48,584 nt of DNA, taken from IMG/VR virus record IMGVR_UViG_3300032334_001302, positions 1 through 48,584 of that record; one strand, written 5' to 3'. The position numbers and the translations under genes are program-made. The notes under the pieces were generated by a model that saw only the letters and a program-made list of their open reading frames with translations, searched no databases and had not been told where the DNA came from. Positions within the stretch are counted from its first letter, which is position 1. Each line of letters starts with the position of its first letter. The DNA comes from a virus. This document shows, piece after piece, positions 1 through 33,404 of the stretch.

Positions 1-444
1 ATCACCTGCATGTATTCCCATAGCAATGGCACAATCTTTACCTGTTTGTTCAGCAATTGATAAAGCAGCTGCTTGAATAATTGAGCTAAAAATTTTATTA
101 CGATTAGGAACTACAGTTGCTTTCATATTATCTTCAGCATAGTGTCCTTCAGGAACATCATCACCACCCTTTACTAAAGCAGAGTTAAGTAATTTGTCTA
201 ATCCTTTCAGTGTAATTACTTGATGTTTTACTTTAGCATAGTATTGTTCATCCTCATAACGAGAATGAGCATTCAAATACTTTACTAATTCTTTAGCACG
301 CTGTAATTCTACATTGTGTTTTTGTCCATAATCAAAGGAAAGAGCACAAACCTCATATCCATTAGCCAATAAGTGTAATAATAAAGTACTAGAATCCATC
401 CCCCCTGATAGACTAAGTACTGCTTGTTTTGGGTGTTTTTTCAT
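1..444 (-). CDS. queC: 7-cyano-7-deazaguanine synthase (QueC), 3' end outside window
   Basis: QueC converts 7-carboxy-7-deazaguanine to preQ0 with ATP and ammonia. The 148 visible residues show the PP-loop ATP-binding signature SGGMDSS (residues 13-19), then SFDYGQKHNVEL and VVPNRN, all typical of QueC. The C-terminal part, where the family's zinc-binding cysteines lie, is beyond the window edge. The ATG follows the stop of an inserted GIY-YIG gene by only four bases. The start MKKHPKQAVLSLSGG repeats a relic found 750 bases upstream. With the DpdA-like gene nearby, the likely role is supplying a deazaguanine base for phage DNA. Identification is from motifs and is strong; the modification role is inferred. 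Confidence 0.93.
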   Translation of the reverse strand, partial: MKKHPKQAVLSLSGGMDSSTLLLHLLANGYEVCALSFDYGQKHNVELQRAKELVKYLNAHSRYEDEQYYAKVKHQVITLKGLDKLLNSALVKGGDDVPEGHYAEDNMKATVVPNRNKIFSSIIQAAALSIAEQTGKDCAIAMGIHAGD

Positions 445-448
445 AACG

Positions 449-1156
449 TTAATATAAATAATCTTTTTTTAGTTTCCAAATATAATTTAAGTAAGGTTTA
501 TTTCTTTTTATAGCTCCTTGGATTCCTTTATAACCTGCTTTATATACTTCACCATATGAAATCCATTCTTTTATAAAATTTCCTTTTAAATCTAATTGAA
601 TTATACCTTGTCCTTTTGATTTACTAATATTATTATTTCTTTCTTCAGTATAAATTTTATGCTTCCAAGAAGAAATATCTCTATTTGTAAGTTTTTCTTT
701 TATTTTTTGTTTTGATTCTTCTGATCTAGGGGATTTACATTTCCATGTTTTATCTTTAGTACCTCCCCCAACCATGTTAGAAGTATCTTGTACTATCCAA
801 GTTTTTCCTTTAGTAGTACTTTTTCCCTTCATTTTATCTGATTGTTCTTTTTTCCAATTTTCAGTGTGGTTTAAAGGTCCAAAGGGTTTATTGGTTTTAT
901 TATAGTAAAGGGGATTAGTAGCAGCATTAAATTTTTCTAACCAAAAGATTTCTTTTGCATTTAATAAAGAAATATCTTCTACATATTCTAAAATTTCAAG
1001 TTCAGTTTCTTTATATTTTTTTAAATCTTCTTTATATTCTTTGCCGCTACCTTTATAATACTTGTTTCCTCCTTTATGTTTACCCACATAAAATTTTTCA
1101 GTAGCTATTATCTTTCGTCGATAGATATATGGTTTATTAAAATCTATATTATTCAT
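449..1156 (-). CDS. GIY-YIG homing endonuclease inserted at the start of queC
   Basis: The 235-residue protein starts with a GIY-YIG nuclease domain: PYIYRRKI, then FYVGKHKGG about ten residues on, then YYKGSGK and a Glu in the EIFWLEKF helix (residues about 9-90). Short basic NUMOD-like stretches follow, and the last 45 residues (IQLDLKGNFIKEW to YLNYIWK) resemble an IENR1/NUMOD helix-turn-helix DNA-binding repeat. This is the modular layout of free-standing phage homing endonucleases such as the Seg/I-Tev relatives. Its ATG lies just behind an AATATTTATAA promoter-like motif, so it seems to carry its own promoter. It separates a 12-codon relic of queC from the working queC. Fold call is firm; target site is inferred from the insertion. 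Confidence 0.88.
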   Translation of the reverse strand: MNNIDFNKPYIYRRKIIATEKFYVGKHKGGNKYYKGSGKEYKEDLKKYKETELEILEYVEDISLLNAKEIFWLEKFNAATNPLYYNKTNKPFGPLNHTENWKKEQSDKMKGKSTTKGKTWIVQDTSNMVGGGTKDKTWKCKSPRSEESKQKIKEKLTNRDISSWKHKIYTEERNNNISKSKGQGIIQLDLKGNFIKEWISYGEVYKAGYKGIQGAIKRNKPYLNYIWKLKKDYLY

Positions 1157-1160
1157 TTAT

Positions 1161-1170
1161 TATAAATATT
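1161..1170 (-). promoter_or_regulatory. late-promoter-like motif before the GIY-YIG gene
   Basis: In gene sense it reads AATATTTATA, ending five bases before the ATG. It is the same element found in front of many structural genes in the window. If it is a -10 box the transcript would be almost leaderless. Confidence 0.5.
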
Positions 1171-1191
1171 ATAAATTTAAAAACTGTCACG

Positions 1192-1233
1192 TCATATCCC
1201 TCCACTTAATGATAATACTGCTTGTTTATTCAT
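1192..1233 (-). pseudogene. relic of the original queC start
   Basis: Read on the minus strand this encodes MNKQAVLSLSGGI followed by TGA. The residues QAVLSLSGG are identical to those at the start of the working queC 750 bases downstream, where the reading frame continues into MDSS. Its ATG overlaps the stop of the 45-residue gene as ATGA, the arrangement expected for an original, translationally coupled queC start. Homology ends exactly at the Gly-Gly of the PP-loop, where the GIY-YIG segment begins. I read it as the left-over 5' end of queC after insertion of the endonuclease gene. Confidence 0.85.
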
Positions 1234-1367
1234 AGTTTTGTTTTATTTACTAATCTACGTAATTGTTCTAAATTAGACAAGCTTAAGCGAAAACGATTTT
1301 CCCAAAGTGCATCTAATAATTTTTTAATTTCAGCCTCGTAAGCTGGATTGATATCTATTGGACTCAT
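1230..1367 (-). CDS. small unknown protein, 45 aa, coupled to its neighbours
   Basis: I do not recognise it. It has 45 residues (MSPIDINPAYEAEI...), probably helical and charged, with no Cys and no membrane segment. Its ATG overlaps the stop of the upstream 82-residue gene as ATGA. Its own TGA overlaps the ATG of the queC relic in the same way. This double coupling makes it likely to be a real gene and shows that it formed an operon with queC before the endonuclease arrived. Confidence 0.7.
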   Translation of the reverse strand: MSPIDINPAYEAEIKKLLDALWENRFRLSLSNLEQLRRLVNKTKL

Positions 1368-11123: not shown

Positions 11124-11669
11124 TTAAAGTTTATATTTCCAAAAAAATCCTCCTGAAGTTTTGGTTCTATTTTTTAGTACATTATTTATTGCTTTTTCAT
11201 TTATTCCCAATATTATAGCTGCTTCTCGACAGCATGAAAATTCTTGAATTAAATTGTTTTGTTTATCTAATTGAAGGATTGGAATTCTTTTACCTGGTCT
11301 AGGGTTTGAAAAACCTTGTTTATTTACTCTAGGTTTCCTCATTTTTTGTCTTGCTTCTTCAGATTTAGGAACTTTCATCTTTTGTCTAGTTTCTTCAGTA
11401 TGAAATTGAGGTCCACCTCCACCATTGTTTTTATTTATTACTTCAAATCCCCAATGTTTAAATTGTTCTATCCAATAGCTTTCAAAAAATTTCCATTCAT
11501 GTTTATAGTTATAAAATATAATATCTATAACATCATATGTAATGTTTTTTCCAAATTTGCTATTATGATAATGTTTGCGGTATTTAGGAATATTTGCTTT
11601 TCCTATATAAACTTTATTAGGATTGTTATCTATATTAGTAATAAGATAAATATATGTAATATGTATCAC
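11124..11669 (-). CDS. GIY-YIG homing endonuclease with GTG start
   Basis: The nuclease domain shows ITYIYLITN and KVYIGKANIPKYRKHYHN, then a Glu in FFESYWIEQFK. NUMOD3-like basic repeats follow (TEETRQKMK, SEEARQKMRKPR). The C-terminus, from PILQLDKQNNLIQEF to GGFFWKYK, is an IENR1-type DNA-binding module. There is no ATG near enough to include the first strand; GTG at the 5' end does so and follows an AATATTTATAA motif. It lies upstream of the SSB gene. The short length (181 residues) is normal for compact phage GIY-YIG enzymes. Confidence 0.85.
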   Translation of the reverse strand: MIHITYIYLITNIDNNPNKVYIGKANIPKYRKHYHNSKFGKNITYDVIDIIFYNYKHEWKFFESYWIEQFKHWGFEVINKNNGGGGPQFHTEETRQKMKVPKSEEARQKMRKPRVNKQGFSNPRPGKRIPILQLDKQNNLIQEFSCCREAAIILGINEKAINNVLKNRTKTSGGFFWKYKL

Positions 11670-11692
11670 TGTAATTTATAATTTTGGTCGAT

Positions 11693-11702
11693 TATAAATA
11701 TT
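11693..11702 (-). promoter_or_regulatory. late-promoter-like motif before the GIY-YIG gene
   Basis: Gene-sense AATATTTATA followed by ATCGACC, 23 bases before the GTG. The extension AATCG is shared with the motif in front of the HNH gene near 13.9 kb, suggesting the two endonuclease cassettes have related promoters. Confidence 0.5.
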
Positions 11703-11711
11703 ACAGAATTT

Positions 11712-11731
11712 GAGCCCTTTTACAAGGGCTC
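11712..11731. terminator. hairpin behind the 113-aa frame
   Basis: GAGCCC pairs with GGGCTC around an eight-base loop. The T-rich flank (TTTATTTTT) is on the plus strand; in gene sense the stem is followed by AAATTCTG, a poor T-tract. It lies 8 bases after a minus-strand stop and before the next promoter-like motif, so it probably ends that transcript or blocks antisense transcription. Confidence 0.45.
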
Positions 11732-11738
11732 TTTATTT

Positions 11739-12035
11739 TTATACTAAATTATTTATTAAGTTCTGCATCTCTTCATCTGCAGGTCCACTATAACTAAAAG
11801 TATATGTTCCTTTTAAGCTTTTATCATCATAATAATCATTATTAGGTACTAACTTAAAGTCTAAATTCGGGTAATTGTTTTCAATATACTTTATTTTATC
11901 TTCTATTTCAGGAGTAAGTTTTTGAATTAAAATATTGCCTGAGGTTCTAGTTTCTTCTTCATTTAATCTAGATTGAGTGGTAATTTTATTTTCTATTAAC
12001 CACTGTTTAGCGTCAAAGTTGTCTGCTTTTTTCAT
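11739..12035 (-). CDS. unknown protein, about 98 aa
   Basis: Unrecognised. I start it at the ATG giving MKKADNFDAKQWLIENK, because the 15 codons further upstream overlap a promoter-like motif and begin with TTG. It contains a polar helix (NKITTQSRLNEEETRTSG) and ends in a segment with Tyr and acidic residues (GPADEEMQNLINNLV). It lies between two GIY-YIG genes. No function can be read from it. Confidence 0.65.
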   Translation of the reverse strand: MKKADNFDAKQWLIENKITTQSRLNEEETRTSGNILIQKLTPEIEDKIKYIENNYPNLDFKLVPNNDYYDDKSLKGTYTFSYSGPADEEMQNLINNLV

Positions 12036-12067
12036 TTTTTTATATTGTTTTATATTGTTTTTATAAT

Positions 12068-12077
12068 CATAAATATA
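12068..12077 (-). promoter_or_regulatory. late-promoter-like motif before the 98-aa gene
   Basis: Gene-sense TATATTTATG followed by ATTATAA, about 32 bases before the preferred ATG. It differs from the consensus AATATTTATA at its first and last bases. Confidence 0.35.
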
Positions 12078-12110
12078 CAAAAGGAAATTTGGATTTCCAA
12101 ATGACGTTTT

Positions 12111-12794
12111 TTAAATTTTTTGTTCTTTCCAAATAAACCCATATGCTGTTTTTTGTTTACCTTTTAAACAACAAGTAATCCCACTGCTATTTATACTTTT
12201 TCCAAAAAATAAATAAGCATCAGTGATTGATTTCCATTCTTTAATGAAATTTCCCTCAAAATTATATTGGAAAACGGGTTTTTGGGAATTAGGTTTAGAA
12301 ACTCTCATATTTAATTTCCCCTGTTCTGATCTAGGTTTTCTCATGTTTTGCTTAGCTTCTTCTGACTTAGGTTTTCTTAGTTTCTCTTTTTCTTCTTCAG
12401 ACATAATATATCCTTCTTTTCTACCTACATCCCATGTAATAACTCTATTTTTAAAAATTTCTTGGTGTTTTTGTTTTTGTTCCTTATTCCAAGGGCCTGA
12501 TTTTCCTAAATCATAAAGATTATTAAATAATACTTTATTGTAATTACCTTCTACTTGATCTAAATAATATTGTTTCCAAAATGTTTCTTTATTATCAAGT
12601 TGATTTAAAGAACATTCTTCAATAATTTCTTTTTTATGATTGTCAAAACCATATTTTTCATAAGAATGTTTTAGTTTAGGACCTATACCAGCATAATTTT
12701 TATGTTCATTCCATCTTTTAATAATATTAATAGATTGACCTATATATATTTTTCCAGAAGGGGATGATATTTTATATATGCCTTGTTTTTTCAA
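12111..12794 (-). CDS. GIY-YIG homing endonuclease, TTG start coupled to upstream gene
   Basis: GIY-YIG domain with KQGIYKISS and KIYIGQSINIIKRWNEHK at the very N-terminus, then a Glu in ETFWKQYYL. Three tandem NUMOD3-like units follow (SEEEKEKLRKPK, SEEAKQNMRKPR, SEQGKLNMR). An IENR1-like C-terminal module runs from PVFQYNFEGNF to GFIWKEQK. An in-frame stop lies two codons upstream, and the only start that keeps the domain is TTG, which overlaps the previous gene's stop as TTGA. The gene therefore seems to be translated by coupling, not from its own promoter. Confidence 0.83.
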   Translation of the reverse strand: MKKQGIYKISSPSGKIYIGQSINIIKRWNEHKNYAGIGPKLKHSYEKYGFDNHKKEIIEECSLNQLDNKETFWKQYYLDQVEGNYNKVLFNNLYDLGKSGPWNKEQKQKHQEIFKNRVITWDVGRKEGYIMSEEEKEKLRKPKSEEAKQNMRKPRSEQGKLNMRVSKPNSQKPVFQYNFEGNFIKEWKSITDAYLFFGKSINSSGITCCLKGKQKTAYGFIWKEQKI

Positions 12795-25541: not shown

Positions 25542-26237
25542 CTACTTATAAACCCATTTAAAATTATAAGCTGTTTTAGAAAGACCAGTTAAACAACAAC
25601 TTATATTAGATCTCTTAAATTTAGGATTACTTTTAGAAGCTTCATCTATACTTTTAAATTCTTGAATAATATTATTTTCTTTATCTAACTGTATTACAGG
25701 TTTATATTTTTTATTTAAGAATGATTGAGGTTGATTTTTACCTAATTTTCCTTGTTTTATTTTTTCACAATGATCTTTTGATAATTTTACACCTTTTTTT
25801 ATTTGGCTTATTTTATTACCAAATCCTTCTGGTTTAGGTTTTCCTTTATTAGCTTTACTAAGTTTATCTTTACGTTCTTGATTTATACTTAATATAGGTT
25901 TTAATTTACCTTTATTACCTTTTCCTATTTTTTCAGTTACATATTTGTATTTTTCCTCATTTAAATTTTTATTATACCACCCAGAGGTTTTACTTCTTAT
26001 GTTGTAAAAATTTTTTGATTTAACAGCATCAAAATAATTAATCCAATATTCTTCACGTTCTCCTAAATTTTCTTTAGTACATATTTCTAATATTTCTTTT
26101 TGAAAATTTTCTTTACCATATTTTTTAATATCTTCTATAAGTAAAGCCCCAGAACCTAAGTAATTTGGATCATTATGAGAATCTTTACCAATATACTTTT
26201 TATTATTTAATAAATTCTTAGTTATGTATATTATCAT
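25542..26237 (-). CDS. GIY-YIG homing endonuclease between sheath and tube genes
   Basis: Nuclease domain at the extreme N-terminus: MIIYITKNL, KKYIGKDSHNDPNYLGSG, and a Glu in EREEYWINYF. Basic NUMOD3-like repeats follow (NKGKPKPEGFGNK, SKDHCEKIKQGK). A C-terminal IENR1-like module runs from PVIQLDKENNIIQEF to AYNFKWVYK. Its ATG follows the sheath terminator by a few bases and its promoter-like motif lies inside that terminator's loop. This looks like a self-contained mobile cassette that has landed between two highly conserved structural genes. Confidence 0.85.
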   Translation of the reverse strand: MIIYITKNLLNNKKYIGKDSHNDPNYLGSGALLIEDIKKYGKENFQKEILEICTKENLGEREEYWINYFDAVKSKNFYNIRSKTSGWYNKNLNEEKYKYVTEKIGKGNKGKLKPILSINQERKDKLSKANKGKPKPEGFGNKISQIKKGVKLSKDHCEKIKQGKLGKNQPQSFLNKKYKPVIQLDKENNIIQEFKSIDEASKSNPKFKRSNISCCLTGLSKTAYNFKWVYK

Positions 26238-26242
26238 AAAAA

Positions 26243-26280
26243 AATCCCCTCGTTTTATTATAAATATGTACGAGGGGATT
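26243..26280 (-). terminator. sheath terminator with a promoter-like motif in its loop
   Basis: In gene sense AATCCCCTCGT pairs perfectly with ACGAGGGGATT (11 base pairs) around a 16-base loop, followed by T7 up to the endonuclease ATG. The loop contains CATATTTATAATAAA, a good match to the late-promoter-like element. The arrangement can end the sheath transcript and start the endonuclease transcript within about 40 bases. Confidence 0.78.
26259..26268 (-). promoter_or_regulatory. late-promoter-like motif inside the sheath terminator loop
   Basis: Gene-sense CATATTTATA, entirely within the unpaired loop of the terminator hairpin and 21 bases before the endonuclease ATG. Confidence 0.45.
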
Positions 26281-33376: not shown

Positions 33377-33394
33377 TCCCTAGTAACATTTTAT

Positions 33395-33404
33395 TATAAA
33401 TATT
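33395..33404 (-). promoter_or_regulatory. late-promoter-like motif of the 489-aa fibre gene
   Basis: Gene-sense AATATTTATA followed by ATAAAATG, 18 bases before the ATG, immediately after the stop of the large adhesin gene. Confidence 0.5.

Follow-up and report, generated by a model that had tools for sequence, protein, structure and literature searches.

How can a homing endonuclease gene (HEG) reside within the coding sequence of a gene that its host needs? The best targets for homing are conserved codons of needed genes, which are also the places where an insertion kills the gene. This puzzle is raised by the 5′ end of queC in a virus record from a metagenome collection, IMG/VR record IMGVR_UViG_3300032334_001302, the whole of which (48.6 kb, ending inside queC) is the window analysed here. 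On the minus strand of the window, a 45-aa open reading frame (ORF) is followed by a relic of a queC start, a leader, an endonuclease ORF and, 4 nt further on, a queC gene that runs to the window edge (Table 1). An earlier note, made from the sequence alone, had read this layout as a GIY-YIG gene inserted into queC, leaving behind a relic start and bringing a synonymously recoded working start. We assign a probability of roughly 85% to a closely related reading, in which a free-standing GIY-YIG-type cassette targets the 5′ end of queC by homing and brings a replacement start along. Swapping the severed start would solve the puzzle, as it lets an element sit in coding sequence without splicing.

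The displaced native start

The relic consists of the codons ATG AAT AAA CAA GCA GTA TTA TCA TTA AGT GGA GGG ATA TGA, which encode MNKQAVLSLSGGI-stop. Its native sequence stops at GGAGGGAT, with the junction after base 1196. The gene downstream of the insert, certainly queC as judged from its profile match, is a complete open frame that begins at an ATG of its own and keeps the whole PP-loop; its working start reads MKKHPKQAVLSLSGGMDSST and includes the codons CTT AGT CTA TCA GGG GGG. Nine consecutive residues, including a shared 12-mer, are repeated in frame between the relic and the working start. The position of the relic, the repeated residues, the 12-mer and the differing codons of the working copy are all as the earlier note had described them.

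A scan of viral contigs with a queC fragment yielded 80 relatives. One of these, the endonuclease-free L006, is colinear with the 900 bases upstream in the window, including the relic (94.9% identity over 896 of 900), without any insert, and its uninterrupted queC starts with the relic sequence ATGAATAAACAAGCAGTATTATCATTAAGTGGAGG. The relic 35-mer up to GGAGG forms the intact queC start in both L006 and L011, and the uninterrupted queC genes of the nearest relatives (L006, L002 and L005, body identity 90–96%) are of the codon type of the relic. Since L006 is colinear through the relic with an intact start of the same sequence, and L002 and L005 share the codon type, the relic represents the native queC start, as had been proposed earlier from the overlap of its ATG with the upstream stop codon (ATGA). 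The in-frame repeat of nine residues with its 12-mer, together with the L006 match that lacks the insert, places the duplication far beyond chance.

Table 1. Features at the queC end of the window
Feature	Position	Strand	Basis or remark
45-aa ORF	1230..1367	−	ORF list; TGA overlaps native queC ATG as ATGA; precedes intact queC in L006 too
Relic of native queC start, 13 codons, MNKQAVLSLSGGI-stop	1192..1233	−	intact homologues in L006 and L011
Cassette leader	1157..1195	−	holds ATATTTATAATAAA at 1156-1169, a motif more frequent in the window than expected
GIY-YIG-type homing endonuclease ORF, 235 aa	449..1156	−	matches to phrog_314 and phrog_7168
Working queC, first 148 aa, runs off window	1..444	−	PF06508 QueC, 3.6e-28
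New queC N-terminal extension, MKKHPK replacing native MNK	427..444	−	comparison with other queC starts
Foreign (recoded) queC 5′ tract, ~26 codons including PP-loop motif SGGMDSST	340..417	−	native type back near 339

The foreign 5′ tract of queC

Compared with L006 and L002, the window queC differs in 23 of 28 codons at its start, 20 of the changes being synonymous and 3 altering the residue, up to about codon 29, past which it is 93–97% identical to both. All four serine codons of the tract are switched between TCN and AGY. Because the early codons diverge and native identity then returns abruptly, this foreign tract of ~80 bp is best attributed to arrival with the endonuclease; endonuclease-free pairs of like body identity (0.93–0.96) as a rule keep a 5′ identity of at least 0.9. 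The recoding had originally been placed in six codons, which do differ synonymously, but the altered part extends well beyond them. Extra N-terminal residues are also found in other cassette-borne queC genes, e.g., MNTNKK, MEKTKK and METKIKNPR.

The sequences nearest to the tract of the window (86–87%) come from L042, which carries a GIY-YIG gene, L098, which carries an HNH gene, and the HEG-free L026, and the phages bearing such nearest relatives are mostly endonuclease-bearing. The queC bodies of these three are only 73–78% alike to that of the window, showing that the tract moves independently of the body. Across the queC loci, 5′ discordance is stronger in those with a HEG than in those without (Mann–Whitney p 2e-6 to 3e-5), p-values that are indicative only because the loci are related and thus not phylogenetically independent. 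Nine loci with a HEG have a testable relative, i.e., a body identity of at least 0.78 to a HEG-free locus, and a clearly divergent tract is present in seven of them, on various backgrounds and with various nucleases. The proposal that the cassette brought its own recoded 5′ end holds insofar as the tract is foreign and its closest kin reside mostly in endonuclease-bearing phages; the tract itself resembles an allele that diverged long ago and was imported, rather than a demonstrably made-to-order recoding. Its divergence would be consistent with a nuclease-resistant rescue copy.

Two further kinds of start were observed among the relatives. Another recoded queC start type (CTTAGCTTATC...TCCTC) occurs with no endonuclease in L010, L013, L235, L242 and L244, in L010 within the native upstream context. 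In L030 (2995-3090) the queC start is chimeric, with native codons up to GGAGGAATGGA, the GIY-YIG insertion point, followed by a tract almost identical to that of L042, and there is no upstream endonuclease. This could be an excision scar, left when relic and working copy recombined and the cassette was lost, or the product of a simple crossover with a phage that bears a cassette.

The endonuclease and its leader

The 235-aa protein matches the homing endonuclease family phrog_314 of PHROGs (9.5e-15, residues 1-232) and phrog_7168 (2.1e-5), and YIYRRK...FYVGK is visible in its sequence. Some relatives linked to thyA match PF01541 or SegE_GIY-YIG. A PDB profile search with the endonuclease gave no match, a scan of bacterial and archaeal genomes found no relative of it, and among isolated phages it was likewise absent, the HNH type described below being matched at <60% identity only. 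The gene is free-standing, i.e., outside any self-splicing intron or intein: Rfam 15 gave no match and no group I ribozyme core at the locus, and a complete queC start lies downstream.

The motif resembling ATATTTATAATAAA occurs at 20 sites in the window against 7.7 expected, e.g., at 1156-1169 (−), 26254-26267 (−) and 33390-33403 (−), and is probably a phage promoter element. Since the leader carries this over-represented motif, the cassette may bring its own promoter.

Recurrence at queC

Window-type GIY-YIG cassettes are found directly upstream of queC in L094, L042, L247 and L252. The relics in L094 and L247 end on the same base as that of the window, after GGAGGGAT, and in both contigs the relic and the flank before it are particular to the locus. 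The L094 relic has a local codon (TCG), the gene ahead of it is a different one, and the flank further upstream is 99% identical to the HEG-free L182. A wider search with a pattern of the junction returned many candidate contigs besides L094 and L247. The repeated insertion at this point implies that the endonuclease would cleave element-free alleles site-specifically.

Start replacement is not confined to this nuclease family. An unrelated HNH/EndoVII family (phrog_1035, 5.7e-20) lies upstream of queC at 12 unique loci, which hold the closest members of the family; relics are present at six of the 12, cut earlier in the gene and decayed to varying degree. A second GIY-YIG type is found upstream of queC in L206, with a relic, and a second HNH type in L204, without one. 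Strong hairpins (z about −4) with an A/T-rich, promoter-like loop were also observed just before the HNH endonuclease starts in L091 (530-560) and L204 (2538-2572); perhaps they serve in expression control.

Recurrence at thyA and possibly at other genes

Other target genes were reached by searching with a GIY-YIG alignment. GIY-YIG genes lie directly upstream of phage thyA, with the native starts displaced, in L262, L259, L261 and the thyA loci among L316-L395. The thyA comparison comprised 70 unique loci, 10 with an adjacent GIY-YIG gene and 60 without. The start motif TRNG instead of DRTGTG is present at all 10 of the former and at 8 of the latter (Fisher 1.1e-7), so that the thyA replacement start alters the protein as well as the codons. 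Six thyA relics are 81–90% identical to native starts and only 58–67% to their own working start, and 5′ discordance is again higher at the loci with a HEG (p 6e-5). The cassette follows relics such as MNNLDKTYTALLQDILDNG, continued across the junction by FFRR-stop, and precedes MNKLDLDYQNLLKDILENGIKKETRNGGT; the native part of the relics ends at DNG, KKDR, DRTGT or DRTGTGT, i.e., just ahead of or inside the conserved motif. Based on these comparisons, the pattern is not a one-off, recurring at queC with other nucleases and at thyA.

Related GIY-YIG genes were also observed directly upstream of groEL (L254-L258, L260 and L264, with a possible short relic MSKVIE-stop) and of a DnaB-like helicase gene (L270, L273 and L274, with a possible relic MTLSTL in L273). 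For start replacement at these two genes the short sequences are suggestive only. An automatic search for duplicated starts, covering the sequences compared before the thyA loci, gave no convincing case beyond queC.

Evidence against homing and alternative explanations

Several observations weigh against homing with a carried start. The window protein has no Pfam family and no GIY-YIG match in Pfam; an AlphaFold model built from four sequences (pLDDT 36) was too poor for a fold search. No relic is visible at the HEG-bearing loci L100, L102, L204 and L252, for most HNH loci at queC no close HEG-free relative was found, and the window queC itself is incomplete. Two of the nine testable loci (L109 and L102) show no clear 5′ discordance. 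Moreover, tract-like starts occur in HEG-free phages (L026, L010, L013 and L084-L093), and discordant 5′ ends at the HEG-free loci L046 and L053, from which it follows that starts are also exchanged without an adjacent endonuclease. The earlier note had named recoded starts in endonuclease-free phages as a ground for refutation; such starts do exist (L026; L010 and L013 with the other type), but not among the close relatives, whose uninterrupted queC matches the relic codons as the note had expected. Such HEG-free carriers would fit a cycle of cassette gain and loss, without amounting to proof of one.

The most serious alternative is ordinary homing of a free-standing HEG with co-conversion, in which the gene by chance lay upstream of a naturally divergent queC allele and the tract is a hitch-hiking flank rather than selected protection. 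The resemblance of the tracts to anciently diverged natural alleles, some of them resident without a HEG (L084-L093), speaks for this explanation, and co-conversion of flanks is standard for the HEGs of phage T4 (PMC2988022). However, without the tract the gene severed by the insertion would not be restored, clearly divergent tracts accompany different nucleases on different backgrounds at seven of the nine testable queC loci, and thyA shows the same pattern with a changed motif. We therefore regard chance hitch-hiking as possible but distinctly the less probable account.

The other alternatives are very improbable. The presence of two start copies could suggest that the queC start was duplicated in tandem and one of the copies diverged later, but the tract of the working copy is nearest to the tracts of distant phages, not to the relic, and queC further on is up to 97% native. 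This origin is refuted by the empty-site relatives and by the affinities of the tract. A group I intron, an intein or a trans-spliced gene, with the relic as the true start, might be suspected because the relic start is in frame and its ATG shares bases with the upstream stop (ATGA). However, the endonuclease ORF is flanked by just 36 nt on its upstream side and 4 nt on its downstream side, too little to hold a ribozyme core outside the ORF, and queC has its own ATG and complete PP-loop; with no Rfam match, a group I intron or other RNA element was rejected. An assembly chimera of two queC alleles has to be considered for any virus record from a metagenome collection, but the same junction base and layout are present in the independent contigs L094 and L247, and analogous layouts in L206, L098, L099 and the thyA loci, making such an artefact scarcely credible.

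Proposed mechanism

Homing with a carried replacement start would proceed as follows. In a mixed infection, the nuclease would cut the native queC across its PP-loop codons, around the boundary between GGAGGN and ATGGATAGYTCC, and the broken genome would be repaired from a cassette-bearing genome, with the upstream gene and the relic as left homology arm and the queC body past about codon 29 as right arm. The relic probably doubles as a homology arm. The recipient would gain the endonuclease and the foreign, largely synonymous queC start together, keeping the protein intact, while its own start would be stranded as a relic. The replacement start would presumably be spared by the nuclease, and the hybrid gene would be expressed and functional. 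Because the intact relic stays uncut beside the nuclease and native queC resumes near codon 30, we infer that the recognition site must span the insertion point and use native codons from about 13 to 30. The locus supplies paired native and replacement sites that can be used for direct cleavage assays.

The history of the locus is well supported by sequence comparison, from which the mechanism is also inferred, and the breadth of the phenomenon was unexpected. It seems likely to us that phage homing endonucleases quite generally live by replacing gene starts: several unrelated families would repeatedly enter codons of catalytic motifs close to the 5′ ends of needed genes (the queC PP-loop, thyA DRTGTGT, and probably groEL and the DnaB-like helicase gene), each with a nuclease-proof start, and such natural home-and-rescue drives would spread foreign starts through phage populations. 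This would explain how the opening 30 codons of a phage gene can differ in history from the codons that follow.

Comparison with known systems

The known system closest to this one is the endonuclease ORF of fungal mitochondria that brings a C-terminal gene end along (PMC3630166). Mobile ORFs with a carried gene terminus are known there from atp6 of Allomyces macrogynus and from atp6, atp9, cox2 and nad3 of Glomus (PMC3630166). As at queC, an endonuclease ORF sits in a conserved gene, the divergent end that it carries conserves the protein, and the native end, now displaced, matches close relatives where the inserted one does not. In contrast to these mostly LAGLIDADG elements of mitochondria, which replace the C-terminal end, the phage cassettes replace the N-terminal end, use GIY-YIG and HNH/EndoVII nucleases and hit the same codons repeatedly. 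Since the N-terminus is replaced, the queC cassette is a mirror-image variant rather than a member of the described fungal set.

Among phage systems, the T4 mobA/gene 60 bypass cassette also combines a HEG in a conserved gene with a linked change thought to be protective; there, however, the gene is divided into two parts and a 50-nt non-coding insert is credited with the protection, whereas queC is restored whole by its replacement start (PMC5009743). The intronless homing of T4 seg and mob genes (SegF/gene 56, and the mobE split of Aeh1 nrdA) likewise involves free-standing GIY-YIG or HNH genes beside their targets, which moved via double-strand-break repair and co-conversion, supplying a transfer route for the queC model. 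Unlike in the queC case, those enzymes cut hundreds of base pairs or more from their own gene, or the insertion splits the target, and a displaced native start with a restored frame is not described in the available portion of that source (PMC2988022). Mobile introns that carry a host gene fragment resemble the cassette in that the carried fragment leads to fragment exchange, but the fragment resembles the following exon, and the queC cassette contains no intron. A phage precedent for replacement of an N-terminus or start was not found in the open-access papers searched, which is weak negative evidence.

In the synthetic HomeR home-and-rescue drive, too, a nuclease cassette is directed at a needed gene and includes a rescue version of that gene (PMC7968924). 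HomeR is engineered with CRISPR in flies (PMC7968924), whereas the queC cassette is natural and its drive activity putative. By this analogy the cassette looks like a natural home-and-rescue drive, a counterpart of the engineered ones that would offer many independent natural designs for comparison.

Other actual or possible endonuclease genes in the window

A second GIY-YIG gene is located at 25542-26237 (−), between the presumed tail sheath and tail tube genes, with no relic seen, and is preceded by a hairpin (CCCCTCGT...ACGAGGGG) that has ATATTTATAATAAA in its loop. At about 11127-12371 (−), peptide stretches resembling NUMOD3 repeats (KSEEARQKMRKPR) were observed, perhaps belonging to a further endonuclease or its remnant.
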